Positions 12,427 through 46,976 of a stretch of 64,000 nt of DNA are shown piece by piece. Below the pieces are notes generated by a model. It did no database searches. It saw only the letters and a program-made list of their open reading frames with translations, and had not been told where the DNA came from. Numbering within the stretch: position 1 is the first letter of the stretch; each line of letters opens with the position of its first letter. Source of the stretch: Bryoerythrophyllum caledonicum (taxonomy: Eukaryota; Streptophyta; Bryopsida; Pottiales; Pottiaceae). The stretch lies in assembly GCA_963971425.1 (NCBI GenBank), contig OZ020517.1, positions 30,724,734 to 30,788,733 on the forward strand, given 5' to 3'. The translations under genes and the position numbers were made by a program.

Positions 12427-12541
12427 CCTAACCCTAGCCCTAAAAGCCCTAAAAACCCTGAAAACCCTAAAATCCCCTAAAACCCCCTAAAATCCTAAAA
12501 TCTTAAAATTCCCTAAAAACCCTAAAATCCTAAACCCTTAA
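12427..12541. repeat. CCCTAAA telomere-like tract
   Basis: Degenerate repeats of CCCTAAA and CCCTAAAA fill the left part of the Helitron. This is the plant telomere unit on the C-rich strand, here interstitial and imperfect. Confidence 0.75.
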
Positions 12542-21879: not shown

Positions 21880-22040
21880 TTCGAACTAAAGTGTCTCCAT
21901 CACTTAGAGGTGCAATGAACTCAAAAAGGCAATTCCACACACTTTAGCTCCACTTGACCTAAAGTGCGAACCATTACTAAGTACAATGAACTAAATAAGA
22001 AGATTTGCTCACACTTTAGCTCCACTAGAGTTAAAGTGCG
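21880..22040. repeat. ~71-bp units with palindromic TTTAGCTC core
   Basis: Two full units. Each carries ACTTTAGCTCCACT followed by GACCTAAAGT or GAGTTAAAGT, at 21941-21965 and 22012-22036, with CATTACTAAGTACAATGAACT-like spacers; a half unit precedes them at ~21885. They are diverged relatives of the palindromes at 25481-25832 and 31878-32219, and lie on the other side of the DUF7869 gene. Confidence 0.65.
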
Positions 22041-22334
22041 ACTCAACATCTACTTTCTATCATTCACCATGAAGACAATTACTGGTATTATTGGTTTCAA
22101 GATTAGAAGCAATTTATCATATTGTTATTTTAAAAAGAAAATAAAACATACTGCAAAATATCACCGAAACGCAAAAATAATGGAGAGAATATTTCATAGC
22201 AATCATTGGCATCACATATAATAGTCATACAAATGTCTATAATCTCAGCACCAATGGATCTAACCATACTACATGAAGTATTACGCATCAGAATCCAAAA
22301 TCTTGGAAAAGGAAAGTCCATTGATCTAAGTCCA

Positions 22335-25166
22335 CTACGACTCGGACCTGGCAAGTGCTTCTAAAGAGGCCTTGATAATCGCTACTTGCCCCTTCGGAAT
22401 TTTTGTAGTTGAATCTTGCACATGACCTCCATCCCTCTTTGAAGACCTAGGTTTCCATGCTGTCAAGATTGAATCGGTACTCTCCCACGTTATGGCTATC
22501 CCCTTTTCAATTGTCCAACGAAGGTTGCTATCAGTATCCCAATCTTTGTAGAACTTCACAACATCCCGATCGTGCGATATAGGGCGGTAGAATTGGATAC
22601 GCACCGTGTTTGGCATATCCGGATTAGAATTAGGATCTGAAATCGCTTGAGCAATCCAAAATGGGCGCTCGTCCCCATCACAAGGCCGCAATGCAACAAA
22701 ATAGCCAGCAAAAAGATCACGCCCAACTCTAAAAGAAGGAGGTGGACGATCGCGTCTCTGGCCAACAAAATGCTCATCTTCACGGTACTCCTCACGAACC
22801 TCACCTTCCGCTGAGAACTCATCTTCAATGGCATGGGCAATTCGCGTCGTTGGCCAAAAGCCGTCTTCCAATGATATCGGTGTATCCATTGGAAGTATCA
22901 GAGCATCTCTAACATCGCGCCAATAATACGATAGCGGCTCAAAACGCGAACGGGCTTCAACAGACTCCCGCGATGATTGCTCCCAGTGATCGATGAATCC
23001 TGAAAGTCCCTTCACCACCTCATGGAGATGCCGCATCGTAGAAGGCTTCAATGCATCAGGTTCTCCGCGAGGCCATAAAGACCTCCCTTCACAATCCTCC
23101 TTCCACAATTTGATGCCACTACCTTCTCCTCCCTTAGGAAGCCAATCCTCATCATGGCAAAGGATTTTATACTTCATTACTGGACAACCACTTGAGTCCA
23201 CATAAAACTTGAACTGATGAGCCTTCGTATGACCCTGCAAAGCTTCATCACCGTCCGCAATCATATCCCCAATGAACTTCTTAAAGTCAGGAACCTCTTG
23301 AATGAGATGCGGGATTGTGGGAACACTCTCATTTTTCATGAATGACTTCATGAGCAAAGGAATGGTTGGAAAACTCTCCTTCCTCAGTGTCATACTCCAA
23401 CGTCCAAATAATGCATCTATATCATCATGTGTATGACCAACTAGCATAAAGTTAACATATACCTCGCGGAAGATGCGTTTTGCAACAAGAAGAGACCAAA
23501 AACAGAAAACAAATCTATTTTTGTTATCACCAACAGCATTGTCCATTTGCACGTTCAATATTGGTGGCAAAGGCCTCCCAGGAACTGGGATATCAGGAAT
23601 CTGCCCTAATGGATCCAAACACATCTCTGCACCCCGTAACACGGCCGCATACAATGGATGAGAGCAAGATTTAGGAAAGAGTTGCCGGGACGATGACTTC
23701 GGAGGCGCCTCCAAGTCACGCAATAGTTTTGCGAACGACCCAACCGTGTAATTGGCATCATGGGAGTATAAATCAAGGCCGTAATGGGCGTAACGCTGGT
23801 CCACATGACCATGGGCAAGCATGCCTGTGATTGCAAGAGGCAACTTCATAAGCCCATCTAAGTGCTTTGTTTTATGTGAAAAAACCGGGGACGCGGTCTT
23901 TGAGTGATCCATCTTATCATGCATGATGGTAAGAACCTCCTGGGGCGACGACTTTGATCGAAATCGGTTCAGGTAGTACAAGTCCCGATGTGAGAAGGCA
24001 GAATCGATGTGAACCTGCATCTTCTTTTGCCATAGCAGCGATGCTTGTGTTCCAGGTTGAGTAAGCTTCTTCTGATCCTGGTATTTGTCACATGTAGAAC
24101 AACGGGCGAAGTTGTCCCCACCTCTCTTGGCATAGTACTCAGGAAAGCTCACTCTCCGAATCTTACTCAAGCTTGAGGTTGAGATTGGCGGCAATCCACA
24201 ATCAGCGAGATGATCATCAAGAAGCGGTATCTGATCCTTCCACTTAAAACTTGCAGGAAGGACCTTTGCCACAGCCTTCTCACCAGATGGGAGAACACGG
24301 GACTTGTGAGGCATGTGGTCCGCATGTCTATCGAGAATGGCTCCAAGAGCGGCAGTAGCCACAACCGTATGACCTCTAGGCTTACGCAAACCGGTATTCC
24401 CATGGTGTTGAGTCGCATGACCAGCGGCAGCGTCCTTCGCATTCCGATAGAAAGTACTCGAACTTACACCCATGATTTTCATCCAAGCATGGGCACAAAC
24501 GTCGACACCCTCTAGGGTCACAACCTTCCTACCCGAAGAGTTTCTATGAAACTGTCTATGAACGTCGAGTTTGATATGATTTCTAAACTGCACAATGGTC
24601 TCACAGTACAAGCGCATCCGAAGGACTTTTATTTTATCTCTAGGATAGTGTTGTACACAGTTCTCACTGCAACAACTATTGCTCGCAACTGCGTTAATGG
24701 AAAGAGGGGTCATGAGAAATTCAGCATTCCTGGACACTGTTGGACGAGTATTCCTTGAGGAATTGTCGTAAGAACGGGAGCTCCCACCTAGAGGTCTGTT
24801 ACGCTCAACCAACCAGACATTGTAAACGTCCCTAAGGCAATGATGGAAGAGACTCACACCGTTTAAGAAAACTTGTTGAATAGGCCAGGACTTAAACGAG
24901 TACCTCCACTCATCAGGAGCTTCCTCCAGAACAAAAGTACTGGACACCTGTACTACAACATTCGAATCCCCAAGAGGACCAGAGGAACCTAGAATTGCAC
25001 TGGACCGGACATTGCGAACCAACCCCTCCGCAACGCGAACACCCGAACCATTGTGAAGCGAAACAGTCATCCCGACCCAGAGACGGCGAGGAATAACATC
25101 AAACTCACGAAGGTCAGGGTTCACGGGAGCGTCAACATGAACATCGTCGCCCTCCGAAGACGACAT
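22335..25166 (-). CDS. DUF7869-type transposase-like protein
   Basis: An intact frame of 943 residues from ATG 25166 (MSSSEGDDVHVDAPVN) to TAG 22335. The frame is also open upstream to 25433, but AATGCAG just before the ATG is a good splice acceptor, suggesting a 5' leader exon. Features in order: a Cys-rich N-terminal part (SNSCCSENCVQHYPRDKIKV), a conserved helical segment (VCAHAWMKIMGVSSSTFYRN), a CxxC pair (ARCSTCDKYQDQKKL), then the core LNVQMDNAVGDNKNRFVFCF and MLVGHTHDDIDALFGRWSMT. As I recall it, that core is the signature of the DUF7869 family, found in many plant and animal repeats and thought to be a transposase-type nuclease fold with Asp residues in QMDN and HTHDDID. No stop or frameshift is seen over 2.8 kb, so the element may be recently active or domesticated. 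Palindrome repeats lie on both sides. Confidence 0.8.
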   Translation of the reverse strand: MSSSEGDDVHVDAPVNPDLREFDVIPRRLWVGMTVSLHNGSGVRVAEGLVRNVRSSAILGSSGPLGDSNVVVQVSSTFVLEEAPDEWRYSFKSWPIQQVFLNGVSLFHHCLRDVYNVWLVERNRPLGGSSRSYDNSSRNTRPTVSRNAEFLMTPLSINAVASNSCCSENCVQHYPRDKIKVLRMRLYCETIVQFRNHIKLDVHRQFHRNSSGRKVVTLEGVDVCAHAWMKIMGVSSSTFYRNAKDAAAGHATQHHGNTGLRKPRGHTVVATAALGAILDRHADHMPHKSRVLPSGEKAVAKVLPASFKWKDQIPLLDDHLADCGLPPISTSSLSKIRRVSFPEYYAKRGGDNFARCSTCDKYQDQKKLTQPGTQASLLWQKKMQVHIDSAFSHRDLYYLNRFRSKSSPQEVLTIMHDKMDHSKTASPVFSHKTKHLDGLMKLPLAITGMLAHGHVDQRYAHYGLDLYSHDANYTVGSFAKLLRDLEAPPKSSSRQLFPKSCSHPLYAAVLRGAEMCLDPLGQIPDIPVPGRPLPPILNVQMDNAVGDNKNRFVFCFWSLLVAKRIFREVYVNFMLVGHTHDDIDALFGRWSMTLRKESFPTIPLLMKSFMKNESVPTIPHLIQEVPDFKKFIGDMIADGDEALQGHTKAHQFKFYVDSSGCPVMKYKILCHDEDWLPKGGEGSGIKLWKEDCEGRSLWPRGEPDALKPSTMRHLHEVVKGLSGFIDHWEQSSRESVEARSRFEPLSYYWRDVRDALILPMDTPISLEDGFWPTTRIAHAIEDEFSAEGEVREEYREDEHFVGQRRDRPPPSFRVGRDLFAGYFVALRPCDGDERPFWIAQAISDPNSNPDMPNTVRIQFYRPISHDRDVVKFYKDWDTDSNLRWTIEKGIAITWESTDSILTAWKPRSSKRDGGHVQDSTTKIPKGQVAIIKASLEALARSES

Positions 25167-25480
25167 TCTGCATTCCAATGAGGTAAACATTAAATAACCC
25201 TGCCAAATAATAATAGGTGAATATCTTGTAGGAATAGACATCATTGAAGAAGCATATGAAGAGGTAAAGTCTGGCGCTTGAAAATACATTTGATACAAGT
25301 GAATTGACATTGAAGAACAGGCAAATTTAGCTCGACTCGAGGTAAACTGATGAGGTATTATATGACAAGTGGAAAATTTCATGCGATTAGTTTTTATCCG
25401 AATATGAAATAATCTCACCCTCGACAGTGACAATTTGGCCCGATCCGACCTGATTTAATGACTATAAGACGTAATCTAAT

Positions 25481-25832
25481 TTTATCCCGAGTCGAGATAA
25501 AAAGGCATAGAAAATAGGGTAGATCAGTTTAGCTCGAGTCGAGATAAACTGTCCTTCGAAAGAAGGTAAGACAGTTTAGCTCGAGTCGAGCTAAACTGTC
25601 GAAACATTATAGTAGGACAGTTTAGCTACATACGAGCTGCACTGTCCTACAATATTGAATCGACAGTTTAGCTCGACTCGAGCTAAACTGTCTTACCTTC
25701 GATCGAAGGACAGTTTAGCTCGACTCGAGCTAAACTGACAATAATGATATTGACCGACAGTTTAGCTCGAGTCGAGCTAAACTGTCTTTCGAAAGAACGT
25801 AAGACAGATTAGCTCGAGTCGAGTTAAACTGT
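25481..25832. repeat. Array of eight palindromes, ~46-bp period
   Basis: Each unit has 10-bp arms TTTAGCTCGA and TCGAGCTAAA around one G or C, extended by CAG/CTG to a GACAG...CTGTC frame. Copies start near 25481 (degenerate), 25525, 25570, 25616 (degenerate), 25661, 25709, 25756 and 25802, a spacing of 45-48 bp. The central base is G in some copies and C in others, so units point both ways. The array lies about 300 bp upstream of the DUF7869 start codon, where subterminal transposase-binding sites or promoter operators would be expected. Confidence 0.92.
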
Positions 25833-26449
25833 CCTTCCGTGATTCTCGGCGCCTTTGTCGGGATTCGTATGGGAAAACTCTTCCGCCTATGAATCTGACT
25901 CTCTGTATACTACAACCCAAATCTTTCCGTTAGTCGTCAAGAAACTCTCACTGATGCTTCAAAATCACAGTAGCAGCTGGAACCAGCGCAATAACCCTAC
26001 ACACTGTCACATCCTAATTGCTAGAGACTATGCACAGAGAATCCAAGAAGTATACATTGTGTACCTTATGAAGAAGACAACCGGTACGTTGTTGCCTTAC
26101 GTGCTCAACCGTGCGCAACCTATAGGTGTAGCCCTCTTCAAGCTCCGACAGTCGTACTACCTCCAAGCCTCTCCACAACAACCTTGCACAACAATCAAAG
26201 TGAGAAGGAAACAAATGAAGAAAGTTTTCGAGTATCGGCGAGGTCACTCACGGACACACGACCGTTTCAGAATTGGCGGGATGAAACTTCAGAATTGGCG
26301 GGGGGGGACTTTTTCACAGCCCCTAAAAAGTGCAAATTCGAAATCTTAGCGGGAAACTGAATCAACTATTTCCCGGTTGACTAAAATAAGGAAAGGTCAA
26401 TACCTCGAATATACTCGCACATGCGAGTTATATACACGGTTTTAGGGTA
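25833..26449. other. Flank of DUF7869 element, no gene assigned
   Basis: A 164-codon open frame (25855-26349, plus) crosses this part but begins without an ATG and shows no domain; it may be 5' untranslated or terminal sequence of the transposon. A duplicated phrase, CAGAATTGGCGGG, occurs at about 26270 and 26290. Confidence 0.4.
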
Positions 26450-26582
26450 ACGCTCAGGGTTTTGGATAGGTTTAGGTTTTGGGTTTAGGGTTAGGGTTTA
26501 GGGTTTGTAGTTTCGGGTTTAGGGTTTGGAGTTTCGGGTTTAGGGTTTGGAATTTAGGTTCAGGTTTAGGGTTCACGGTTTA
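26450..26582. repeat. TTTAGGG telomere-like tract
   Basis: Degenerate repeats of TTTAGGG and GGTTTAGGGTTTGG. Interstitial and imperfect, on the G-rich strand. This is the plant-type telomere unit. Confidence 0.8.
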
Positions 26583-27997
26583 GAATCCTTGATTTAGGTG
26601 ATATCTTTTGATGTCAATTCATTTCAATATAATAATACTTTGAAGATTCATGATATTGACAATTCAACTAAGGTATAGGGAAATGTAGAGAAGATATTGA
26701 GATGATTAGAAATAGTTTTTATTACAATCCAAATAGGACTTATCTATTATGTTTAAATCAAAGACCTTAACAGACGAGTAGCATTTTAAAAAACAAAAAA
26801 ACATATTATATGTGCACGTGTATTTTTAGCCAAAACAAATGTATTCAAACATGCTTTGGACATCATTTCTTTGGGGTTTTAAAAATGTTCGTCATGTAAC
26901 TATTTCGTCATCAATTTAGAATGTGCATTCTTTGGCAAGAATCCCAATGTCCCCATGGTCTGGATTTGCAATTGAAATTGGTTACTTTCCACTTAGAGGT
27001 ACTCAAAGACTTGAAATATGCGCAAAGTAATATTAATTTTGGATTGAAATATCTTACATTTGAGTTCACATTGTATTTTCATGACTTTAGGGTGTGGCAA
27101 TCTAAGCATGACATAAAAGATGGAAGAATTCTTGACCATATACAATTTATTTCATGTTTTGACGTGAAATTGAAGACTTTGTCATTTGTAAAACATAGAG
27201 AGTGGAACAATATTAAAAGATTTAAATAAGAAACGGAGAGACCTCCTCATGACAAAAAAAGGATAATCAAAATATAAAATATAACTAATACAAAGTGTAT
27301 CACTTAGTGCATCAGGCATAATTTAATGTTCGTAATGTAAGTAATTTTGAATTTATTTATACATGCAAAAATGGAATAATTAGTTTTTGAGCACGTTCTA
27401 GTGGTCGCAAATTATATTTAAAATTCTCAAAATCTTGTAGAAGGATGATAAAAGTAATGAGGCATATTTATAAGTAATGTATTTTCTCAATGAGAGGCAT
27501 ATTTATAAGTAATTTATTTTCTCAATGAACGTCTTCATTAAAAGTTATGCGAGCCAAAAGAGAAACTTCTCGATTGCCGGCACATCGAGCAACCTAAAAA
27601 ACCTTTTGCTATGACACAGTATGGAATGTGGTATTTTCAATTCATAGAAGTAATATTAGAACAAATGATATTGTGAAAAAATATGTTATTTTTCTAGTGA
27701 AAAATAAGATTACATATTCATTCATCTATTTTTCACATTGTCACATATTATTGATTTAGGGTACCAAGAATACTTAGACTTCATATCCACTAAAAACTAG
27801 GGGATCGTCATATTTTTTTGTTTTTTAATATTACTATTGGAGATTTAGATCCACATATTATGAAAATCCTTTTAAAATTCAAAAGATAACTATTCCACTT
27901 GTGAAATACTTATCCATAAGGAGAAGTACAGAGTTCAAAATGATTGTTTGTAGAAGTGGAAATACACATTGCACATACATCAGATCGGTTTTTAGCA
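26583..27997. other. AT-rich intergenic DNA
   Basis: No gene. A ~36-bp phrase (GAGGCATATTTATAAGTAAT) is duplicated at about 27459 and 27494. Confidence 0.5.
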
Positions 27998-28200
27998 GAG
28001 GTGTGCACCATCACTACATGCAGTGAACTAAAAGGAGTGTGCGCACACACTTTAGCTCCACTCGTGCTAACGTGTGCCTCATCACTAGGTGCAGTGAACT
28101 AAAAAGATAATATGCACAGATTAGCTCTCCTAGAGCTAAATTGTGCACCATCACTAAATGGAGTGGATTAGAAAGCAAAAATGCACTATGTAGCTCAAGT
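27998..28200. repeat. ~62-bp units of the TTTAGCTC palindrome family
   Basis: Three units of the form CACCATCACTA-N-TGCAGTGAACTAAAA followed by TTTAGCTCCACTCGTGCTAA or TTAGCTCTCCTAGAGCTAAA. This is a degenerate branch of the palindrome family, without the CTCGAG core. Confidence 0.65.
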
Positions 28201-28679
28201 ATACAGAAGATGGCTTCTAGAGAAGTGGAAACTAAATAGGAATGCACACAGTAATTGTAAAATTTACAATAAGTGTAGTGACAAAACTATATTACACTAA
28301 ATGCCAACTACTTCACTAAATGTCAATCCTAGTAAATAGTAGAACATAAAGTTTTTACTTGTCGACAATTACTGTAGGGAACCTTAATCATGATTTGATT
28401 ACATCTTGAGCATCATAGTAAAGAAGGGTTGAGTGCATGTAGAAAAGGAAGAATTTGCAAGAAAGAGCTTGGAAATAAGCGGACGTAGGTATGGAGCAAA
28501 AGGAAAATATAAAAATTTGGACAAAGTAGAATGTAAAATATGGAGGGAAAATGAAACTACAAGTAGAAGACTGGAAATATAAGAACATTCTTCTGGAAAC
28601 GAAAATGAGAAAAGAATGGAATATTGGAAAAGGAAAAAACTTAAACATACAATAAATATAGGAATACAAGTAAAATACT

Positions 28680-29060
28680 CATTAGATATCCATCACATAA
28701 TACGCATTCAATGTGCATTACATATTCAGTAAATATTAATTAAATACTCATTAAATATTCAAATACACATTAATTTTACATTAGAAATTTATGCACTATT
28801 CATTAACTATTCATTAATAGTGCATTAAATACTCTTTAAATAATCATTAAATATATAAATATTAATAAACTATCATAAATATACTTTTAAAACTTCCAAC
28901 ATTCAATAAATAAAATTCCAATATTCTTTAATTGTGCATAAAAGTTACAGATATACCAATATACATGAATTATCCTCTAAAAAATCATTACAAAGACATT
29001 AGTTATTGGCTAAATATTTGATTACACATTAAATATTCATTAGATAATATTAAATAATGT
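28680..29060. repeat. Degenerate ATTAAATA-rich repeat tract
   Basis: Extremely AT-rich sequence built from variants of CATTAAATATTCATTA. It could be a decayed satellite. No coding content. Confidence 0.5.
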
Positions 29061-29789
29061 AAAGAAAATGCAAGAGATGGGAATGAGAATAGTTGTGGAT
29101 AAGAGGATAAGAAATTGAGGTTGAAGATGAGACGAAGAATGAATGCATGGCGACCGGTAGGCTAAAGACTTTGAGCTTATACTATTTATCAAGTATCAAA
29201 ATTGTGTGCTAGGGAAGAGTTTTGATAGAGGGCTATTACGAAATGAACTGTAGTAGGTGAACGAATGAGGGATAATATTCAGGACAATGGTGGCTAAAAC
29301 TAGTTGCCAACTTGTTGACAAATAGTGTACTAGAAAAAGATAATCTCCACCGGGACCGAGTGACCGGAATGCAAGAATAAACACGGTAAAGCCGCTCCAT
29401 GAGGCCTAGGCCGGTGTACCAGCCCACTGCAGTGGCGGCGCCGGTTCCTCTAAATAGTAAATTTACAAAAAGTACAGGGGACACCAAAATTCCCCGAGAG
29501 CATGTGTTCAAGCATGAAATTACACGAGGGAATTAAAAGAAATCAATAAAAACCTCCAAAAAAATTAGCCTACTATAGAGTTAGTGCTGGGCGTTGGCGT
29601 TCCCTCATAGTGGCCAATTCGGGGACGGTGCGGGGGGAAAAGGGTGACCCCCCCACTTCATCTCAAACTTGGGCACCTTCCCGCTGGCGTGGAAAATTCT
29701 CCGTCAGTGGGGGAGATGCTCTAACAACTGTATTTGTATCGTTACAGTAAAAGCAAAATGAAGTGAAAAGTACAGAAAAAATTCACAAT
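29061..29789. other. Intergenic DNA with MITE-like GC island
   Basis: 29580-29725 is a GC-rich island that ends GGGGGAGATGCTCTAACA, a sequence common at the ends of plant MITEs. The matching left end (near TAGAGTTAGTGCTGGGCG at 29575) is only weakly complementary, so I do not call an element. Confidence 0.4.
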
Positions 29790-29885
29790 TTAGCTCTGTT
29801 AGAGCTAAAGTGTACACCATCAGTAAATGTAGGGAACTATAAAGCTAATACGCACACTTTAGCTCCATTAGAGCTACAGTGTCCA
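29790..29885. repeat. Two palindrome-family units
   Basis: AATTTAGCTCTGTTAGAGCT and CTTTAGCTCCATTAGAGCTA with the CACCATCAGTAAATGTAGGGAACTA-like spacer described at 27998-28200. Degenerate family members 60 bp apart. Confidence 0.65.
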
Positions 29886-30894
29886 CTGGCATTTATTTTA
29901 TAATTATACAATTGCAAGATGTGGTCTTAACATACTTATTGTCTATTCGATTGTCATAGAAAATAATATCAAACTCATAAAAAAACAAAACTTGAATTCA
30001 AAGTAATAGAATCTTAAAATCGTAGCTTTAAAACTCTCTTAAGTGTGCTTGACCTAATAATTGGTGCAGGAGGAACTTATATATATCGATGGTAATGAAT
30101 TTACTCCTTGTGTAATGCAAAAATTGAAATCGAGTGAAGTGAAAGCCAGCTGATCCACTAAAACCATGAAAGAAAACTAAACACTAAATACTATAAACGT
30201 TCACTTTCGTCCAATTTAAATTTGTGTATTATTGAGAAAATGTCAATTTAGAAGTTTTAATTGAGATCATACGAAAGAGATTGGAAATAATAACTTTCCT
30301 TTTGCTACATGTTCGTTGCCCCAAAATATCCAAAATTGTAGTGTTAGTGGCTCCGAAAAATTGTGTTGGAAATTTACGAGTACACAAATACTACAGGCGC
30401 GTAATATCTTGAACTTATTCTGGTAAAATTAAATTGGCTTCTTAAAAGTCCGAGTATCAGTAACGAAGGTGAAAGATTTGTGGAGCATCCGGCATAATAC
30501 CCGGGAGTTACACCCCAATATCGCAAAGGGTATCCCGAGGGTATCTCGGGACCACCAAACGGCCACAGGGTTTCGACCCTCACGGCTATAGGTGGCCCAG
30601 AAACTTCCCCACGAAGTCGTGGCGCGAGCCATTTTTCTATTCTTTTCGTTGCAGTCCAGGTTTTCCGTGTACTTCCAGACGTTGTTGTTTTCTGAGTTTT
30701 GTGAGTTGATGCGTTGGTTTGTGTTAGTTTCGTTATCTACAAGGATTGTTATGTTTGTGTACACTGTAGCAGTGCGTATAGGCTTCCGTGTGCAATTTAT
30801 TGGAGTCTAGGGTTTCATGCGCATAGGGTTTGTAGGACGTGCGATTTGTTGTTGTGTGGCTTCGTGTACACTACAGCGCCAGAGTTTAGGGCTG
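29886..30894. other. Intergenic DNA, possible promoter of next gene
   Basis: AT-rich up to ~30480, then a more balanced composition with GGGTATCCCGAGGGTATCTC near 30540. A GT-AG leader structure follows downstream (donor at 31263, acceptor at 31713), so transcription of the ParB-like gene probably starts somewhere in 30600-31200. No TATA box can be assigned with confidence. Confidence 0.4.
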
Positions 30895-31170
30895 TTTGCG
30901 TGAGATTGTGTGAGTTTGTGAGAGTTTGTGTGAGTTTGTGAGAGTTTGTGTGAGTTTGTGTGAGTTTGTGGGAGTTTGTGGGAGTTTGTGTGAGTTTCTG
31001 CGAGTGTGTGAGTTTCTGCGAGTGTGTGAGTTTCTGTGAGCGTGTGTGAGTTTGTGTGAGTGTGTGTGAGTTTGTGTGAGTGTGTGTGAATTTCTGTGAG
31101 TGTGTGTGAGTTTCTATGAGCGTGTGTGAGTTTCTGTGAGTGTGTGTGAGTTTCTGTGAGTTTCTGTGAG
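30895..31170. repeat. Minisatellite (TGTGTGAGTTT)n
   Basis: About 25 imperfect 10-12-bp units of TGTGAGAGTTTG, TGTGTGAGTTTC and GAGTGTGTGAGTTTCTG. The two overlapping minus-strand frames here (His/Thr/Ser-rich, like LTETHTHSQKLTHTH) are products of the repeat, not genes. The tract may lie in the transcribed leader of the downstream gene. Confidence 0.9.
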
Positions 31171-31399
31171 CACGTAGAGTCTGAAACGGCCGTGCGTGGA
31201 GGATTGACGTGATCAAGTAACAAGACTTCCAGCTTTTCCAGTCGGATTTCTCAGTTCTAAAGGTAAGTGCACTCATTCAGTCTTGCATTTCTTTTGATAT
31301 TTGTGTAGTTTTGCTTTTGATATGATGTGTTGAAACATAATATATGTGTAGCATTGCTTTTGATGTATGTGTCAGCACGTAGATGAGAGTGTATATTGG

Positions 31400-31680
31400 T
31401 TTCAATGTGCTGGTTTGAATGTGGTGATTTGAATGTGGTGGTTTTGTGGTGGTTTGTGGATATTTGTGGTGGTCTGTGCTAGTTTAAATGTGTTGGTTTG
31501 AACTGGTGTAAGTGTGCTACTTTCTGCTAGTTTGAATGTGCTGGTTTCAATGTCATTGTTTCAATGTGCTGAATTCAATGTATTTATTTCAAAGTGCTGA
31601 ATTTCAATTTGCCCATTTCAAAGTGTTGATTTCAATGTGAAAGATTTCAATGTTTTGGTTTCCATGTGCTACTTTGATTG
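31400..31680. repeat. Degenerate TGGTTTGAATGTG repeats
   Basis: Imperfect short repeats of GAATGTGCTGGTTTCAATGT within the first intron of the ParB-like gene. Confidence 0.6.
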
Positions 31681-31760
31681 ATTTTGTGTGTGGGTTTGTA
31701 ATTGTTGTTGCAGGAAGTCTAGTTCCAGCAGAATTTGTCTGGGATTAAGGTTCATAAGCA

Positions 31761-34700
31761 ATGGCTGAAAGGTAAAATCCATACTCTCACCCAGGAGCCC
31801 TGAACCCTACGCCTTCAGTATCATATAACGAATGACGAATCTGTACAATCTGCGATAAATACGCTATTCATTGAACACAGTTTAGCTCGAGTCGAGCTAA
31901 TGTGGGAAATCCATATTTGCACTATTGTCCACACTTTAGCTCAAGTCGAGCTAAAGTGTGCCCCCACTGTGCACTAATATCCACACATTTGCTCGACTCG
32001 AGCTAAAGTGGGCCTTTTCTGTGCACATAAGGCCACACTTTAGCTCGAGTCGAGCTAAAGTGAACCTTTTCTGTGCATCTTTGGCCACACTTTAGCTCGA
32101 GTCGAGCTAAAGTGGACCTTTTCTGTGCATCTTTGGCCATACTTTAGCTCAAGTCGAGCTAAAGTGGACCTTTTCTGTGAACATTTGGCCACACTTTAAC
32201 TCGACTCGAGGTAAAGTTTGATCAATGAAGCAAACACAAAGTTGCACTTTGGCGCAACAAGAGCGTAAGTGTGCCAAATGTGCACAGAAAAGTCCCAATT
32301 TAGCTCAAGTCGAGCTAAATTGTGGACGATAATACACTATCGAGGTCACATAATATCTCGACTCGAGATAAAATGTACGACTTCGTACGTCTTCGGTTGC
32401 GCTAAAAGAGACTACTCGAAATAAAATCTTAATATCAACTCTTAAACACTGGGTTTAAAATAAAACATGGCCTCTCTATAAAGCCTACACACTTTACCTC
32501 GAATCGAGCTAAAGTGTGAGAGAATGAACATAAACAACAACCCGAACACAACACTATTCGGACTTTAAACATTCCAAATGTATAGTAATCCAATGATACC
32601 GACGACCCAACTCATGTCCACTTCTCATTAAATTCTCACATGCGTGCAAGAACTTCAGTCACGCTTCAACCACTTGAGAACCTCAAAGAGTGAGGTTCGT
32701 GAGTGATTTAAGGGTGAACTGAAGTTCTTTCACAGTTCTGAGAGTTAAATGAGAAGTAGCCATGATTTGAATTAAAATGTATAGGAAAGTCGTTTGAATG
32801 AATATTGTAAGTGTCAGAATTGTTCAGCTATGCATTCCATGCATGAGCACTTTAGCTCGAGTCGAGCTAAAGATGCAGCTAAAACTTGAATACAACATTG
32901 ATACATTGGTGTAATTGCAGTCTCCTAACTCAACTCACGTCTACTTTTCGTTCACCTCTCATAAATCGTGCAAGAGCTTCAGTCCCGCTTCAACCACTTG
33001 AGAACCTCAAAGAGTGAGGTTCGTGAGTGATTTGAGTGTGACCTGAAGCTCTTTCACAGTTCTGAGAGTTGAACGAGAAGCAGGCATGAGTTGATTGTAA
33101 GCGTCTAAGCGAACGGTCAAATTAACTAGATTTTCTTGCAGAGTATTACTCACATACTTGAATAACGGTACACTTTAGCTCGAGTCGAGCTAATGTGTGA
33201 CCTCGCCGTCCTAATCGGTTGATCATTGAAGCAATCTAATATCTTTGCTCTATTTTGTGTTTGTGCAGATCTGAGAGGGACAGGATGGTGTCGAAGTTCA
33301 GCACTTCTTCCAGCCAAAGCCTGTCGACCTTGACGATGACGATGGAGACGACAACAACCACTTGGACTGCTGGGAGCTCAAGGACCCATCGATGACACTG
33401 AAGTGGACGCTTCTGTGGGCGACCTATACGGATCATTTAGTGTTTGGTCAGACCTTCGCTGGTGCTATCGTCGATCCCCAGCACATCGACTTCAAGACCA
33501 AAGTTACTGATGTAGTCCACGAAGTTAACGATCACGTTAAGTTGTCGTGTGAGACGACCTCTGAGTCCTTAGATCCGTATTTCTTTACTATTATAGTAAA
33601 CAATAGTTCATCTCCCTTCTATATCTTGGATTTGGTCGATTCTCTTAGGTCATCCAAATTTGAGGAAATAGTGACTCAGGTCGAGCATGAGATCTCCCTT
33701 AAGAAATGGGAGACTAGTAGCGGACAGCCACTGAAAGCAAAGGCTATAGCTAATAAACTGCGCGTCATTCTCTCTAGAATGAGTACCTTTGTCGCTCTAG
33801 ATAAGGCGAAGAATATTGCGGCAAGACGGCCGATAAAACTTTCAACGGTTTCGGGGGCCGTGACCGGTAGCCAGGACATGAGTCAGGCGTCGGTACCGGT
33901 TAGAACTCCAGGTGCAAGAACAAGTCGAAGCACTCTGCGCAACACGCTGTCTGCTTCCCCCGTCAAGAAGCGCTCAGCTGCCAAGAAGCCGGAGACCTCT
34001 TCAAGAAAGAAGTCGAAGCTCGTATCGGAGGAGGAGCAAGCCAATTCGATGGCCTCTGCACTCTCGGAGCTCCCCAAGGCGCTCGGATACGGAGAGACAA
34101 TCGACTACAACAACGTCCAACAGATTTACCAGAAATTCTGGACGGAGTGTCAGAGCTGTTTTTTCAAAGGCGACAGAGAGATGAAGATCGAGCTTGACGT
34201 GATGAGGTTGCATAATGCACCGCCGGAGTGGACTATCCGTGCGTTCGAGCCTCGGGGCATGGAGGAGTTGAAGCATTACTACCTCCAAATGCCAGACAAG
34301 ACGCAGAAGCAGACTCTCTGCGTCATGCCGAAGCTCGACACTATGCCGACGACTGTGGAGGAGCTCAGCGACTGCGACTTCTACATCATCAACGGCCAGC
34401 ACAGCGTTGCTGCCTCAAAGGAGATGATTAACGGCAACGTTCCGGAGGTGATGAGAAGGCACTTTCGAACATGGCAATGTTATATTGTCTGGATGCAAGA
34501 TCCGGAGAAGCTGAGGAAGATTTCCGCGTATTATAATCGCGTGAATCATTTGGTCCAGTTCAAGCCGACGTGGGCAACAAATATCCTCGGCTCCCGTGCT
34601 TTGTGGATCCAAGCTGGGAGACCAATGCCGAAGCACTCTGCCACAGGCGTTCGCGGGTCTCACAAGTCAGGTCGGAGAACTGCAGTTGAAATGGCCAATG

Positions 34701-37700
34701 ACAAGAGGTTTGAGGTAATATATCTTAACCAAGGTCATGCACTTTAGCTCCACTCGAGCTAAAGTGCAAGTTCGCTCTGTATCTGTATAGTCATGTGTAT
34801 TGATTGAAATCGCTTTCATTGTCTGCTTTTGCGTTGCAAGTTAGCTCAACTCGAGCTAACTTGCAGTGTTTTGGACCCTACTAGACATGATAATATTCCT
34901 GCTTTATTGTATACTTGAACGACCCTTTTATGTTCCGCCCAGCCATTTCTCAACGCGGTTCGTGAGCGCTTCGCAATGATCGACGTTGCGAAGAGCCAGG
35001 CTGCGCTCAAGAAAGCCGGGAAGGCGAAGGAGCTTTCAATTACGAACGAGGTGAAGATAATCACCGCGACAGATGAGACCTTCGAGCTGTGGTCCGATGT
35101 CATCTCTTTTGCGGCGCATGGCGACCTCATCAACGTCGATTCAACTTCGACGCCCTTGGCAAAGTTCAAGGACGCGAAGTCTTGGGTTCCTGAGAAGGAT
35201 GGGGTTCTGACGCGCGAGTTCTTCAAGTTTCTCGGCAATATGACCGAAGCCGATCACGGGAAAATGTGCAAGCACATTCTCAATCGATCAGGGCCATCTC
35301 GGAAACTGCCCTACCCTAAGGTAGTCATCAAGCTGCCGAATTCTGCGCTGGAGGATTGCTATACAGCCCGGGACTGGGTGGATCGGAGGAAGAGGAAGGA
35401 GGTCGCTCGGATGGAGCTTCAACTGATCAGGCCGGAGCTGGCCTTCTTCAACAGCACTAGAGCGTACAGACGTTCAAACTGGCGGACGTTCAAGAAGAAC
35501 TACAACATCAGCAAGGCCTCAAAGCGTGCCCTCTTGGATTGGGGTCCACCGGATTCGTACTACGCCAACTCGAGGCAGACGCAGTTTCGCAACTACAAAT
35601 GTGAAGATCTCTCTCCGTACGCGAAGGAGTTCTTCAGAGTCTTCATCGTTGTGCGGTCGCGGTTCGTTTCACCAGTGGGAGCCCTGCACTTCCGTTCTTA
35701 CAAGGCGGCAACGAATTCGCTCGGGACGTGGCCTTCGGATTCATGGCGCAACCTGGGCTGCAATGTGAAGCTCGGCATCATCGACTTCCGGAACATCCCT
35801 GGGTTCTCTGGGACGTCGTCATCGTCGTTGGAGAGGCCCTTCTTCGACGAGTTCATGACGATGTTCGCATTGAAAGGACAGCCTCCCCTCACCGATCTTC
35901 CAGCCTGGCTCTTCATTTGCGGCAACGAGCAGTCACACCTTCAAGTGACAGCGTTTGCTGAGGGCCCGTCGTTGTGCCATGCATACGATGTGCTGCAGTC
36001 GAAGTATCTTCCCTCCGAGAACGAGCGCCTCGGAGGATTCGCGCCGAAGACCAACAACGCTCTAGACCCGGTTCGGCTCCTCTTTCTCTTCAAGAAGGAG
36101 CTTACGGTGATCCCAGCCGTAAAGAAGATCTACGCAGCTCCAGAGCATGTGTTGTACACGAAGCTGCGCAAGTACAACGAGTTGGCGTACTCCATGAACA
36201 TGAACGAGATGAGGATGGAGTTCTTCGTCAAGCTCCTGGAGCTGTTCTGCAAGAGGGGGGATTCTGTTGTCCAACTGTTTGGCGGGACGAAATTACTGAC
36301 AGCAAGTGTGGTAAGCATCCCTGCAGTTTAGCTCGAGTCGAGCTAAACTGTTTATTCCCTTTCTGACTCGTGCATAGTTTCAATGTGGTCATGCCTATGC
36401 TGTTTGGTGAAACTTTAGCTCGACTCGACCTAAAGTGTCGGCTTTTTCTTGTATGATTTTATGGATGTCATTAACTTCGTTCGTATCATTTGAAGTTATA
36501 ATAGCCAAGTTTTTGTACCAGCAATTGTTTGTATTGAGTTTAGCTCGACTCGACCTAAATTGTATCTTGTTCAATCCATTGGTGTGCAGATGCTGGACCT
36601 GGAAGCGTTCTGCATTTCTCACGACACCGATGAGCAGGATCTCGACGATGCCTTTGAGGTCGGCTTGACGTTGGATCGGGCCGATTTTGATATTTCTGCG
36701 TATCACGTCAACTCGGAGATCTTCCCCGAGCTTGGAGATGCCGTTGGGAAGGGGAAGGGGAAAGCCATTATTGACCTCGGCGATGAGGAGGAAGATGCGG
36801 AGCCGAGCGCTGTGGTAGCGTGTCCGATCTCGAGCACCGTCACTCCGGATAATGAGTCCCAGGACGACTTCGTTGACGCTACTCCGCCTCAGTTTCAGAG
36901 TGCATCTCAATCTGAAGCAGGGGACACAATCGCTTCCTCGCGACAACGACTGGACTTCCCGGAGTTGGATTCGTTGGAGATTTCCGACAAGCCTCATTCA
37001 GCTCCCACCTTGGGTGCTTCAACCGCTCGTCCCGCGGCCAAGAAGAGGAAGGTTGCTAGCGCGAGCACGCGCTCTCCTTTGGCTAATGCGAGCAGCGCTC
37101 AGGATGACAGCAGGTTGATCTCCCTTGAGAAGAAGCTCGAAGAGGAGGCCACCCGGATGAGGTTGATGGAGCAGCGACTTGCGGAGCGCGACGAGGAGCT
37201 CAGGGATCTGCAGCGGAGGCGTGATGATGAAATGAAGAGAGACCAAGATCAGAGGCATGCCGAGATGATGCTCATGATGCAGAGATTCATGTCGGCTAAT
37301 TTGCCTACTTCCGCCACATCACCGCCTTTAATTATTGCTGCAATCCCCCAGCCTCCCGCATCGCCGGACGGCGGGTCTGCGAGTCCGTCTCGCGATTTGC
37401 AGCTTCCATATCCGTCGGTTACCTCCCCCGTCTGCAGTGGGGCTCAATTGCTTCCTGTTCTCCCTTCCGCGTCGGCCCGCCCCTCTTCCCCTCCGAAGTC
37501 GCCCGATCGGGACGAATCTATCGCAGATGTCCCCATGTCATCGTCAGGTTAGTGTAACGTAGTTGCGAGTGTATAGAGGCAGAACATTTTGTAAATGTCC
37601 AATTTTGTACTCCAGTATTTTTTTGTTAATATTATAGTGCACGGCGAGCACTTCAGCTCGAGTCGAGCTAAACTGCTTGACATCTAACCACTGTGACTTG

Positions 37701-38924
37701 TATCGGTGTCCCTGTGCCCATCCGCTGATAGGTGTGAAGTTGTTGAATTTTTCCAGATCTAAGTTTCGGTGATGACGCGATTGCTCAACCAGTCATAGAC
37801 GAGGTCGTCCAAGTTTCAGCCGTGCTCGTAGACGAGATCAATCATGATTCTGAGCCACCTCTTCTTGTCCCAGAACCGTGCCCCCAAATGGATGTCGGGC
37901 ACTCCGGGCCCCTTGACAGCATGTAGGGTTCGTTGGGATCGATGGGTGCCCGAGACGAAATGTTGCAGGACGATGAAGTTCTCGAGGTATTCTTCTAACT
38001 CTTTTCGAACTCCACTCATTCCCCCATCACTCCTCCCCCGTTTATCTCTTTCGTTCTACGTATTGTTGAATCGTCGTTGTTAATGAATCTGTAGTAATAT
38101 TGGTCGTTCTCCTGGCATTTGCGAACCAGGTCGGCGAGGCATCAATAAGTGATGCCAATAATCTAGAAGAAATACCTAGAGTCCATTCAGATATCGAGGG
38201 CAGGTGGTTGAACATTGTGCTGGACCTCAATGGGATTCTATGCACGTGTGAGCCGTCGTGGCAGGCCAGAGGATCCAGGGACTCTATCCCGTCCATTCAC
38301 TCGGCTTTGCTGCCGGCCGAAGTAGGCCCTAAACTAGTTCGAGTGCGCCCTGGTTGTGCTGAGTTCCTTACAAAGTTGTCTAAGATTGCCACCATCACGA
38401 TCTGGAGTTCGATGATGGAATCTACAACGCGTCAGATATATAATTATCTTTTTCAGCATAGTTCTTCGTACCCTCTCAGGATCTTTGGTCAGGAGAGTTG
38501 CGATAGGGTTCCCGAGCGTAGAGTCGGTAGCAGAACATTCTACATGAAGGAATCTGGCACTCAGAAGGACATCTTCTTGAAGACCTTATCGAGCCATCTC
38601 TTCAATAGGTTGGGTCGTGAGTATACTCCGGCAAATACGCTTGTCATTGACGACAGCCCGATTAAGCACATGCTTAATTTGCCGGAGAACGTTCTTCTTC
38701 TTCCATCATGGTCGCACAAACATGTTGGCGCGAGAGACGACTCTGTATTGTTGGAGGAATTGCTGCCATATCTCTCTGACCTTCATCAGTTTCCGGGTGG
38801 TCTAGCGCAGTATCGGGCCGAACATCCCTCTGGCCGGGAGATGTTTTATAATGATCAAAAGACGTGTGGTCAGTCTGCGAGTGTCTGGAACGCAATCCAA
38901 GCGTTTCAGAATCTCCGCTCTTAA
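31761..38924 (+). CDS. ParB-like / N-MTase-like / FCP1-like fusion gene
   Basis: A single multi-exon gene fits best. Leader exon ends 31262 (AAAG|GTAAGT). Second exon is 31714-31771 with ATGGCTGAAAG. Further exons: 33269-34714, 34943-36310, 36590-37547, 37757-37986 and 38130-38924. All junctions from 34714 onward are GT-AG and keep phase; about 1,600 residues in total. Order of parts: N-terminal region, Lys/Arg-rich linker, ParB/sulfiredoxin-like motif (FYIINGQHSVAASKEMI), methyltransferase-like region, acidic linker, charged coiled coil (~37110-37290), and C-terminal HAD phosphatase. Two defects: the short ATG exon does not join the long frame in phase (one base short), and 37922-37924 is an in-frame TAG. 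The locus may therefore be decaying, have an unseen mini-exon, or be two genes. Nuclear action is inferred from basic KKR-type stretches. Confidence 0.6.
31878..32219. repeat. Intronic array of seven palindromes, 52-bp period
   Basis: Units start near 31878, 31931, 31983, 32036, 32087, 32139 and 32191. Each has the arms TTTAGCTCGA/TCGAGCTAAA (some with CTCAAG or a C centre), framed by CACA...TGTG or CACT...AGTG and the spacer CCTTTTCTGTGCATCTTTGG. The whole array lies in the intron before exon 33269 of the ParB-like gene. Confidence 0.92.
32608..32771. repeat. Long hairpin, copy 1 (intronic)
   Basis: Arms of about 75 bp. The left reads CACTTCTCATTAAATTCTCA onward to CACTTGAGAACCTCA. The right arm in reverse complement reads CTACTTCTCATTTAACTCTC onward to CACTCACGAACCTCAC. 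The loop is only a few bases. The structure resembles a plant MIR foldback or a small MITE. A close copy lies at 32931-33093. Confidence 0.75.
32931..33093. repeat. Long hairpin, copy 2 (intronic)
   Basis: Same fold as 32608-32771. The stretch GCTTCAACCACTTGAGAACC and its opposite strand are unchanged between the two copies, while outer bases differ, often with the opposite arm changing too (AAGAACTTC/GAAGTTCTTT in copy 1; AAGAGCTTC/GAAGCTCTTT in copy 2). Confidence 0.75.
33269..36310 (+). other. ParB-like and N4/N6-MTase-like domain region
   Basis: Seen: YIINGQHSVAASKEM encoded near 34380-34425 resembles the G-x-x-R/H-x-x-A box of ParB/Srx nucleotide-binding domains. Downstream, CNVKLGIIDFRNIPG (35760-35800) sits where beta-class N4/N6 methyltransferases have their catalytic DPPY box, but reads IDFRN. 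It is followed by PAWLFICGNEQSHLQ and YLPSENERLGGFAP, and at 36250-36310 by GDSVVQLFGGTKLLTAS, like the AdoMet-binding FxGxG motif. The next exon continues LEAFCISHDTDEQDLDDAFE, the usual helix and acidic strand after motif I. Motif order IV then I with an N-terminal ParB domain matches bacterial and phage ParB-methylase fusions (family knowledge). The altered DPPY box suggests lost or changed catalysis. Confidence 0.45.
34738..34862. repeat. Two palindromes in intron 34715-34942
   Basis: CACTTTAGCTCCACTCGAGC at about 34739 with its complement, and GCAAGTTAGCTCAACTCGAG at about 34837 with its complement TTGC. The second has its own outer stem, GCAA/TTGC. Confidence 0.8.
36324..36562. repeat. 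Three palindromes in intron 36311-36589
   Basis: CAGTTTAGCTCGAGTCGAGC at 36326 (perfect arms), CTTTAGCTCGACTCGACCTA at 36412 and GTTTAGCTCGACTCGACCTA at 36537. Half of each of the last two has changed from GAGCTAAA to GACCTAAA. Confidence 0.8.
36590..37986 (+). other. Linker with coiled coil, in-frame TAG
   Basis: Exon 36590-37547 begins MLDLEAFCISHDTDEQDLDD. It then runs into acidic and Ser/Pro-rich disorder, an NLS-like patch (AAKKRKV, ~37035), a coiled coil (LEKKLEEEATRMRLMEQRLA, then ERDEELRDLQRRRDDEMKRD) and a Pro/Ser tail. The donor at 37548 (CAG|GTTAGT) joins the acceptor at 37756 in phase. The following exon, DLSFGDDAIAQPVIDEVVQV onward, contains ATG TAG GGT at 37919-37927, then resumes in frame to the donor at 37987. 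The TAG is the only stop in that exon. Confidence 0.5.
37652..37677. repeat. Palindrome in intron 37548-37756
   Basis: One copy, CTTCAGCTCGAGTCGAGCTA onward, between the coiled-coil exon and the next exon of the fusion gene. Confidence 0.75.
38130..38924 (+). other. FCP1/NIF-like HAD phosphatase domain
   Basis: The last exon encodes about 264 residues. HAD motif I is VLDLNGILC (Asp-x-Asn instead of the DxDxT of true CTD phosphatases), motif II is TIWSSMM, and the C-terminal acidic motif is VIDDSPIKHM. Between them are the strands VRVRPGCAEFLTKLSKIAT and LRIFGQESC, as in FCP1-homology (NIF) domains. The DLNG variant is the form I recall from plant FCP1-like proteins of unknown substrate. The second Asp, the general acid, is replaced by Asn, so activity is uncertain. 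An annotation pipeline could report this exon as a separate gene starting near 38100. Confidence 0.75.
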
Positions 38925-39303
38925 TGCCGTTGGGAATGCTTAGATGCCTTTTACACTTTAGGTCGGATAGAGCTAAATTGTATCGATTGACTGCAGCTCG
39001 ATGTTGTAAATTTTGTTGGACCATTTTTTGTGTATATTTTTTTTATAAATGAAACTGAGATGTTTCACCGCTTTGTTTGTTGTGGGAATTGGATATCTAC
39101 TGTTGATGGAATGTCGTGCTATTCTGAATGATTGGAATTTTCATCTATTGTTCTAAGGTATGTCAGTGTCGCTGTGGTTGAAATTTCTACAGGGCTGTGA
39201 CTGTCGGGCGTCCGTGGATTCCTTGCTAGGGCCAGAGGAGTTCGTCCTTTCTCTTCGGAGTAAAGGGCTTTTGTTGCACTCTGCTGCAACCGCGCAATCA
39301 ACC
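38925..39303. other. 3' flank of fusion gene
   Basis: Contains a degenerate palindrome (CACTTTAGGTCGGATAGAGC at about 38953) and a likely polyadenylation region (AATGAAACT, TTTTTTATAAATGAAAC near 39030-39050). Confidence 0.45.
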
Positions 39304-40042
39304 ATGGATTATTCGACCATGGCAGTGGACGACGGAGTTGTTGAAAGCCCTATTGCGCGGGAGCCAATTCATGATAGGAACAACTCGCCTTCGCCGCAGT
39401 GGCCTCGTTTAGTTCCTGGGTCCCCGCCTTTAAATCCGGATAATTGTACTCCAGCAAAGCGTATTCTCTACGACGGTTTAAGGGATGGTACTTCCCAACG
39501 CTCGCTTGCCGTGCGTGTTATGATGACCTCCAATTTATTGCACTATTGCGATGTTTTGGCCTAGACAATTTTGGTTTGTTGTTGAGCTACATTGCACTAA
39601 TGTAGTTTTGGTTCATTTAAGCTTGTTTTTTTTGTTGGGGGTTAAATGTGCTCTGTGGATCTTTCCTTCTGCATTTTAGCTCCATCCGACCTAATGTGCG
39701 CTAGGATGGATTTCAATGATTAAATTTTCATCTGTGTTGTGTAGCAGTATTCGACCTAAAGTGTATTTCTTTGGATTGTGTGTGGCGCCTATTGTGCAGG
39801 GACCATTCGGTAAATGTCTCCGTCCTCGAACTTTGTCTGGGGATGCTACTAGAGGCAAATGCTCTCCTTCCCCCACCCGCCGGCACTTGCTGCCCAAATC
39901 AAACAGTGACGAGGTGCGTAGGCGGGGTTTGCAGCGTCTTCTAGAGAGTCCATTAATGCAAGAGAATGGCGCAACATGGACAAGGCAACGTCAGAGGGCT
40001 TTTTTGAAGACGCGTATAGAAGCTTATGGTGGAACTCCGTAG
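39304..40042 (+). CDS. Small two-exon protein of unknown function
   Basis: Exon 1 starts at ATG 39304 (MDYSTMAVDDGVVESPIARE) and is open to 39564. In-phase GT candidates occur at GCC|GTGCGT and CGT|GTTATG near 39510-39517. Exon 2 begins after TTGTGCAG at 39800 (GPFGKCLRPRTLSGD) and ends at TAG 40042 (TRQRQRAFLKTRIEAYGGTP). The product is about 150 residues, rich in Pro/Ser at first and basic at the end. The intron holds palindrome-family half sites (TTTTAGCTCCATCCGACCTA at 39672; TTCGACCTAAAGTG near 39750). No family is recognised. Composition and intron content match the fusion gene just upstream, so the two may belong to one unit. Confidence 0.5.
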
Positions 40043-40990
40043 ACCATTTGATTAGTGATAGGATGATTGTGTTTTGCCTCGGGGTGAATGAGTGTTGTTT
40101 GTGATTTTTTTTCATGATGTTTTAAATAAAGCTTGGAATAATGGTACATGCTTCTTTTAGCGTTACCATTTTTTGGGACATTCGGCTAATTTGGTCCATC
40201 CATGTAGTGGTATATAGTATTCTTGGTGCATTGTTGATATGCTTTGCACCTACAATTGTCTATATATATTGATACTTTAAAGATCATATATCTTCAAAAT
40301 TATGGAAATCTCCCATTATAACGAATATGGTGTTATTAAGTACATTGGCACTTTCTTCTTTGCCAAAACATTGAGAGTTTGAGTAATAAATATACCTTTA
40401 TTCATGTTCAGAAAGAGATTTTTCTACTGCCAATACAATACATTATTATTAATGTTAATCATATTGATTTTCATTTGTTGTACAAAAGAAGCTCAATAAC
40501 TTCCATTGTTCATAACTTAGAAATAGTTTAGGGGGATGAAGGAGTGAAACGCAATTGAAAAGCGTGCAATTAAACAAAAAGAATTGAAACCTCAAAAGGA
40601 TTGCATGTGCTAACATCTAAAATTTTAGCACATGTGCACCTGCACGATTGAGAACATTCAACTATGCACTTGAAAAAAGAAATTATCTAAATTTTGAACT
40701 CATTATTATTGTCACTTTGGTTCTTGCAAGTGATTAAGATGTGCCATAATTAATAATATCATAATAACACTATATAAAATGATATGATGTGACATTAATA
40801 AGATAGTTAAATTAGTAGTGCAAAAATGACCAAAAAAATATCATGTGGACATATATTATAATTGCACTTTCTTATCAGTGAAAATATATAAATCCCTGAG
40901 CTTAAAACCTTTCTTTCTCCATTCCATTTATAAGCCTTTTAGAACTATTATGTTTGTTATTCAAAAGAAAATAATTCAAGTTCTTGAAAA
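40043..40990. other. AT-rich intergenic DNA
   Basis: No gene or bounded repeat recognised. Confidence 0.5.
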
Positions 40991-46890: not shown

Positions 46891-46976
46891 AAATATTGCA
46901 ATGATATGGGAATCTGGAAATGGGTATGAGTATTGGTTGTTGTTTTGGTACCAATTGTTGTTTGGTGTGATGATGA

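Follow-up and report, generated by a model that had tools for sequence, protein, structure and literature searches.

Candidate recognition sites of an element-encoded protein: a 21-bp palindrome repeated through a 19-kb TIR transposon in Bryoerythrophyllum caledonicum

What is a 21-bp palindrome, TTTAGCTCGANTCGAGCTAAA, doing in regular arrays and in introns beside two genes of a moss, and which protein, if any, binds it? In the window, by which we mean the whole 64-kb stretch of DNA that was analysed, this palindrome was matched 31 times at up to three mismatches, and none of 100 dinucleotide shuffles contained a match. A first-pass annotation had described an eight-copy array beside a DUF7869 gene, a seven-copy array in an intron of a second gene that it named ParB-like, and further copies in at least three other introns, with the idea that sites and binder form a pair within one locus. 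The answer to which we lean, and which we consider somewhat probable, is that the palindromes are recognised by a DNA-binding protein that acts as a homodimer and is encoded by the very element that carries them, most likely the product of the second gene (exons 3-5 plus a phosphatase domain).

The palindrome sites and the transposon that carries them

At up to five mismatches there are 37 palindrome sites inside the window's transposon copy, and none of the 37 lies in a domain- or homology-supported exon. The sites span 21684 to 39760, a wider range than the 25481..39760 of the first-pass annotation, while the arrays that it reported were all recovered. Array A (25326..25828), upstream of the DUF7869 gene, consists of one separate site and eight units at 46-47 bp (25481-25828, successive spacings 47, 47, 46, 46, 47, 47 and 47, one unit having 5 mismatches). 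Array B (31881..32215), in intron 2 of the second gene, has seven units 52 bp apart except for a first gap of 54 (54, 52, 52, 52, 52, 52) and lies between stretches that look like exons, at about 31.7 and 33.27 kb. The same intron holds extra sites at 32299, 32352, 32493, 32851 and 33174 (32299..33194), and the further introns that had been claimed to carry copies do so, with two sites in intron 3 (34743 and 34840; 34743..34860), three in intron 4 (36327, 36414 and 36539; 36327..36559) and a single one in intron 5 (37652..37672), these introns being placed by open frames and splice consensus alone. Outside the introns, four diverged sites lie in the intergenic gap (28051, 28120, 29789 and 29858; 28051..29878), three on the left subterminal side (21684, which is weak, 21943 and 22015; 21684..22035) and three on the right (38957, 39675 and 39740; 38957..39760), the last being weak, with 5 mismatches, and overlapping an open frame of doubtful status. 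Exceptions to the regular array spacings are 38, 45, 51, 70 and 119 bp.

The regular spacing had been read as about five helical turns, which would place dimer sites on one face of the DNA. With a helical pitch of 10.5 bp, this holds for the 52-bp spacing of array B, but the units of array A, at about 47 bp, are roughly 4.5 turns apart. Five turns thus suit array B alone, and helical-face phasing is ruled out as a general rule. The part of the proposal that stands is that the palindromes appear to behave like dimer sites.

Both arrays and both genes belong to one TIR transposon copy of about 18.97 kb (21370..40334), with terminal inverted repeats at 21370-21398 and 40306-40334 that begin AACACCATATTCGTTAT and a 4-bp target duplication, ATTA, at 21366-21369 and 40335-40338. 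Eleven regions of contig C1 (the E copies), chosen among the palindrome places that the genome search listed first, were all homologous to the window element. The homology ended at window positions 21366-21370 in five of the 11 (E1, E3, E4, E5 and E7) and at 40334-40341 in six (E1, E2, E4, E6, E8 and E9), while at the remaining ends the copy was truncated or rearranged, or the fetched piece stopped short. All three large copies with both ends have the TIR at each end and a perfect 4-bp target site duplication (TSD; ATTA in the window, ATTT in E1 and TATG in E4); the other large copies had one end or none in the fetched sequence. Given these shared limits of homology, together with the TIR and the TSD, the window unit can be identified as a single copy of a TIR transposon of 19 kb. 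The palindrome-bearing unit is a transposon copy and not a special host locus, and the suggestion that palindromes and both genes share one unit proved correct, the unit being a mobile element.

In the 437-Mb genome the palindrome was found 17,453 times, as against 10 for a control, and the TIR 1,279 and 1,267 times, as against 0. Exon 3 of the second gene gave 1,884 first-look candidates, and the 87 that were scored were all at least 91% identical. The first-pass annotation had proposed a genome search at up to three mismatches, in which uniform scatter would speak against an association with the two genes; such scatter was not seen in the places sampled, which were among the first listed on C1 in this one genome. 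All 11 clusters and four of the five further places lay inside the window's element, and the fifth was an array of a sister family.

Several other repeats were observed in the window. About 28 copies of the decamer GTTTGTGTGA (30894-31170) lie directly 5' of array B in the second gene's 5' region, a telomere-like GGTTTAG repeat of about 17 units (26469-26583) lies within the transposon, and segments of about 165 bp are repeated and inverted in the array B intron (32605-33107), where they match other copies both ways. Elsewhere in the window there are a CCCTAAAAA-type repeat (12438-12534), retroelement frames on the minus strand (45097-48341) with a reverse transcriptase below cut-off and an RNase H, and a plant U-box repeat domain.

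The two genes and the ParB question

The DUF7869 gene (22338..25166, minus strand), a presumed transposase gene, is fully open in the window copy and encodes 943 aa that match Pfam PF25273 at E 4.6e-43 (147.5 bits, against a curated cut-off of 26). Genome-wide, PF25273 gave 3,605 first-look candidates; the 150 that were scored reached 173-196 bits, all above the window's protein, and many of them are open frames of about 1,066-1,087 aa. These higher-scoring and longer candidates suggest that there are probably several DUF7869 element families in the genome. Two other families (L036 and L037, with partial flanks, L036 including masked bases) are without the window palindrome near the gene. Within L037 (C9:16369500-16375500), positions 5001-5160 hold three copies, two of them perfect, of an unrelated palindrome, GAGGGGTCGAGGCCTCGACCCCTC, which has 412 genome matches (control 0), often occurs in groups 5-15 kb apart and forms a regular 1.93-kb series at C2:3619356-3630980. 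We considered whether this array might point to palindromes as a general rule of DUF7869 elements and rejected the idea, as the word appears to resemble the LTRs of another element.

The second gene lies on the plus strand and starts at about 31.7 kb. Exon 3 (33269..34714, +) is an open frame that was compared with L031 and L032, relative to which the window copy is frameshifted near its start; several other copies are stop-free there. Exon 4 (34943..36310, +) is an open frame with 40% identity to the sister family over 143 aa. Exon 5 (36590..37547, +), also open, has on reading of the sequence acidic, basic and coiled-coil-like stretches. A NIF / CTD-phosphatase-like domain (38131..38921, +; Pfam PF03031, E 2.4e-18) probably forms the C-terminal end of the second gene's product, a fusion predicted from splice consensus. 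No relatives of exon 3 beyond this genome were confirmed in viral contigs, and its last 219 aa gave chance-level matches only, with a best E of 1 among 6 plasmid records and of 3 among 3 phage records.

The name ParB-like could not be kept for this gene, as its protein matched no ParB family by the sequence profiles of Pfam, NCBIfam and PHROGs or among PDB sequences. A weak transposase HTH match was found below threshold (best E 0.0037, in 11 of 16 members). ParB-parS pairs are partition systems, and the window element is like them in having a palindromic site and its putative binder within one mobile unit. It differs in the lack of ParB profile homology and in having about 30 sites, in two arrays and in introns.

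Conservation, decay and exchange of the palindromes

To compare copies, 17 non-array sites were aligned over 6-11 copies (E2 and E9 being left out at site 21943, where they are non-homologous). Arm columns differed less between copies than the non-coding flanks, with means of 0.045 and 0.137 respectively, and the arms were lower at every one of the 17 sites (Wilcoxon p 1.5e-5). This constraint is strong in most introns of the second gene and weak at 28051, 28120, 37652 and 39675. At site 34840 both arms are altered (GTTAGC/GCTAAC) in all 10 aligned copies. The palindrome arms are conserved DNA. The differences between copies were 0.062-0.133 for five coding stretches of the element and 0.096 and 0.110 for two intergenic ones, so that, in a comparison that draws on partly different copy sets, the arms are better kept than the genes on average. 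This faithfulness, above that of the genes, suggests that a protein of the element may use the word to recognise its own DNA.

The kinds of change bear on whether such a protein would see DNA, or whether the palindromes act as RNA hairpins in introns or untranslated RNA. The intronic position of many sites and the ability of the arms to pair would agree with hairpins. Over 334 sites the centre base is C in 139, G in 116, A in 44 and T in 35, a mostly C/G variation that would be expected if a symmetric binder cannot tell these apart. Decay of the arms is balanced overall (45 C>T versus 51 G>A), and in array B and the gene introns C>T, which keeps a G-U pair, is not above G>A, which breaks the pair (16 versus 29). 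A dimer that binds DNA symmetrically accounts for the switching centre and the balanced decay better than an RNA hairpin does. Sites are also carried by intergenic and subterminal DNA, and no Rfam family was matched at the gathering threshold. We therefore consider RNA hairpins extremely improbable as an explanation.

Outside the arms, co-variation of the outer stems had also been noted. The pairs named there are present, and among the outer pairs of the 334 sites (in 12 sequences, the sites not being independent) pairs 1, 4 and 5 match more often than expected from their columns (216 versus 119.5, 189 versus 136.4 and 187 versus 93.4), with pair 7 somewhat over-matched (121 versus 85.4); the claim does not extend to pairs 2, 3, 6 and 8, which show little or no excess. 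Within the arms there were 49 compensated changes, as against a mean of 12.6 and a maximum of 23 in 500 shuffles that ignore relatedness, a single position close to the centre accounting for 30 of the 49. Uncompensated changes in the window family number 399, and decay after insertion thus dominates there.

The arrays themselves vary from copy to copy, array A having 4-9 units in 11 sequences and array B 3-8 units in 10. In every array run the cores are more alike than the spacers, and spacers are present in both orientations. Since the runs were picked by a spacing of 46-47 or 51-54, the way they were chosen explains part of their regularity. Variable unit number, conserved cores and two-way spacers together are the pattern expected from exchange between palindromes. 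Another reading would be that the palindromes are functionless hairpins, selfish or mutationally maintained, that are spread and perfected by template switching. The two-way spacers and the varying unit number do indicate that palindromes take part in recombination. However, the sequence itself, beyond its symmetry, is kept at homologous single sites, and imperfect arms persist, as the uncompensated changes show, and we judge this explanation very unlikely.

Miniature elements, a sister family and the candidate binder

Gene-less elements that share the window TIR also carry the palindrome. Five were read, four of them found via the palindrome search, the exception being one of 238 bp. The 404-bp miniature elements (L033-L035) have a palindrome 51-52 bp inside both ends and 4-bp TSDs; L033 and L034 share flanks and are probably one insertion. 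Their palindromes are equal or close to a symmetric variant, TTTAGGTC/GACCTAAA, which alone has 507 genome matches at up to one mismatch (control 0) and which follows the TIR at a gap of 20-45 bp in 39 and 36 genome matches (control 0). The 238-bp element, nested in E10, has the TSD ATAA and one sister-type palindrome, and a 184-bp element (L038) has two decayed palindromes and a TSD that matches at three of four bases. Beside copy E7, a 176-bp stretch (L017, about 424-599) with one TIR and a GGTC/GACC variant of the palindrome matches the ends of the 404-bp element and is a separate or partial element.

The 404-bp elements would need only the transposase, and each of their ends has a site; together with the position of array A directly upstream of the DUF7869 gene, this could mean that the DUF7869 protein itself binds the palindromes, for synapsis or self-regulation. 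We regard this as possible and rather doubtful, given that the sites of the large element are mostly internal and follow the introns of the second gene, and that the palindrome is absent near the gene in the two other DUF7869 families, as far as their partial flanks extend. The mostly internal position, which would be unlike that of pure transposase sites, also counts as a point against the reading of the palindromes as sites of a putative binder.

Of four isolated palindrome places that were fetched, three belong to the window's family and the fourth (L039) to a sister family. In L039, 11 palindromes form an array with a spacing of mostly 52 bp; nine units read TTCAGC/GCTGAA and two TTTAGC/GCTAAA, with none mismatched at that pair; the change in the sister family is symmetric. 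The TTCAGC/GCTGAA class has 2,180 genome matches at up to one mismatch (control 0). At C1:15584309-15589520 the listed sister sites follow in the order array, close pair, single, single, as in the window's second gene. A sister exon 4 was first placed between the two singles (L043), and this was ruled out as no window exon was matched there (tblastn, 1e-3). When the exon was placed a second time, between the close pair and the first of the singles, the 451 bases of L044 contained an open frame that shares 40% identity with the window's exon 4 over 143 aa (E 2e-34). L043 is open over 300 aa with a coiled coil and a weak match to exon 5 (E 7e-4 in a single comparison), and would be at best an exon-5 relative. 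The changed palindrome and the 40%-identical exon 4 suggest that site and protein diverged together in the window and sister pair, a single comparison on partial sequence of two sister loci, and trivial joint divergence also occurs.

These observations bear on a binder from outside the element as well. The element might exploit a transcription factor or chromatin protein of its host, which would suit the enhancer-like density of sites at the start of each gene and within introns. Isolated host sites numbered none among the 16 places sampled, however, and in a sister family within the same host the target word is altered symmetrically, which makes a host factor distinctly unlikely.

Returning to the second protein as the binder, we infer binding, the identity of the binder and an anti-silencing or regulatory role, and the following scheme may be proposed. 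A dimer of the second protein would occupy about 30 sites in the non-coding parts of the element that encodes it, most densely at the 5' side of both genes. Such binding would regulate the element and protect it from silencing, and would mark both the element and its miniature derivatives for mobilisation. The arrays would expand and contract through unequal exchange, and the target word would drift with the binder as families split.

To our knowledge, transposon-encoded self-recognition arrays are known in depth for few groups (VANDAL and En/Spm), the VANDAL elements being Mutator-like. The window element, in contrast to VANDAL, has a DUF7869 gene and a 4-bp TSD, and the likeness to VANDAL is one of sequence features. 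VANC21 of Arabidopsis VANDAL21 is reported to bind in introns, intergenic and terminal regions, with tandem-repeat targets that differ from family to family (PMC5735166, PMC10398659). The VANC targets of VANDAL21 and VANDAL6 resemble the window palindromes in being a short word dense in non-coding DNA (introns and intergenic stretches, and in VANDAL also upstream of the VANA gene), and in having tandem arrays whose unit number rises and falls and which vary from one related family to the next along with the element protein; a short non-coding word in copy-variable arrays is what the window element has. The VANC target word has 9 letters (YAGTATTAY), whereas that of the window element is a 21-bp palindrome, and the term 'palindrom-' is absent from the main text of PMC5735166 (2017).

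In En/Spm, TNPA is reported as a second protein, with repeats that act as determinants in cis and have to be kept by defective elements (PMC2613891). The likeness lies in a second, non-transposase protein, putative in the window element, that recognises repeated cis words, and in non-autonomous derivatives that move if they keep the cis sequences, for which the miniature elements with a palindrome would be the counterpart. En/Spm has subterminal repeats, a CACTA TIR and a 3-bp TSD; the window element has none of these features of TNPA repeats, its sites being mostly internal, its TIR AACACC... and its TSD 4 bp. A third case is the 21.5-kb Sola1-1_Ec32 of Ectocarpus, whose ParB-like accessory protein has been proposed to bind and modify its own element (PMC12477816). 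That protein is described there as having ParB-like and methyltransferase domains, whereas the window's second protein has a phosphatase-like domain and 0 ParB matches; 'palindrom-' is likewise absent from the report's main text. In the open-licence literature no element such as the present one was among the matches listed, and 'DUF7869' gave no paper.

A bolder form of the reading is a giant eukaryotic transposon whose own symmetric protein, with a CTD-phosphatase-like domain and possibly a ParB fold, loads at parS-like palindrome arrays and coats the element's DNA, site and binder co-evolving by family. We offer it as speculation and think it unlikely; if true, co-evolved pairs of site and binder would let families and miniature parasites ignore each other's machinery. 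If the palindromes are recognition sites of the second protein, as we favour, they would be an independent case of self-recognition in an uncharacterised group of DUF7869 elements, with a longer, dyad-symmetric target. One genome would then hold thousands of natural site variants and at least two pairs of protein and target, and the co-evolution of binder and target would therefore be directly testable in it.
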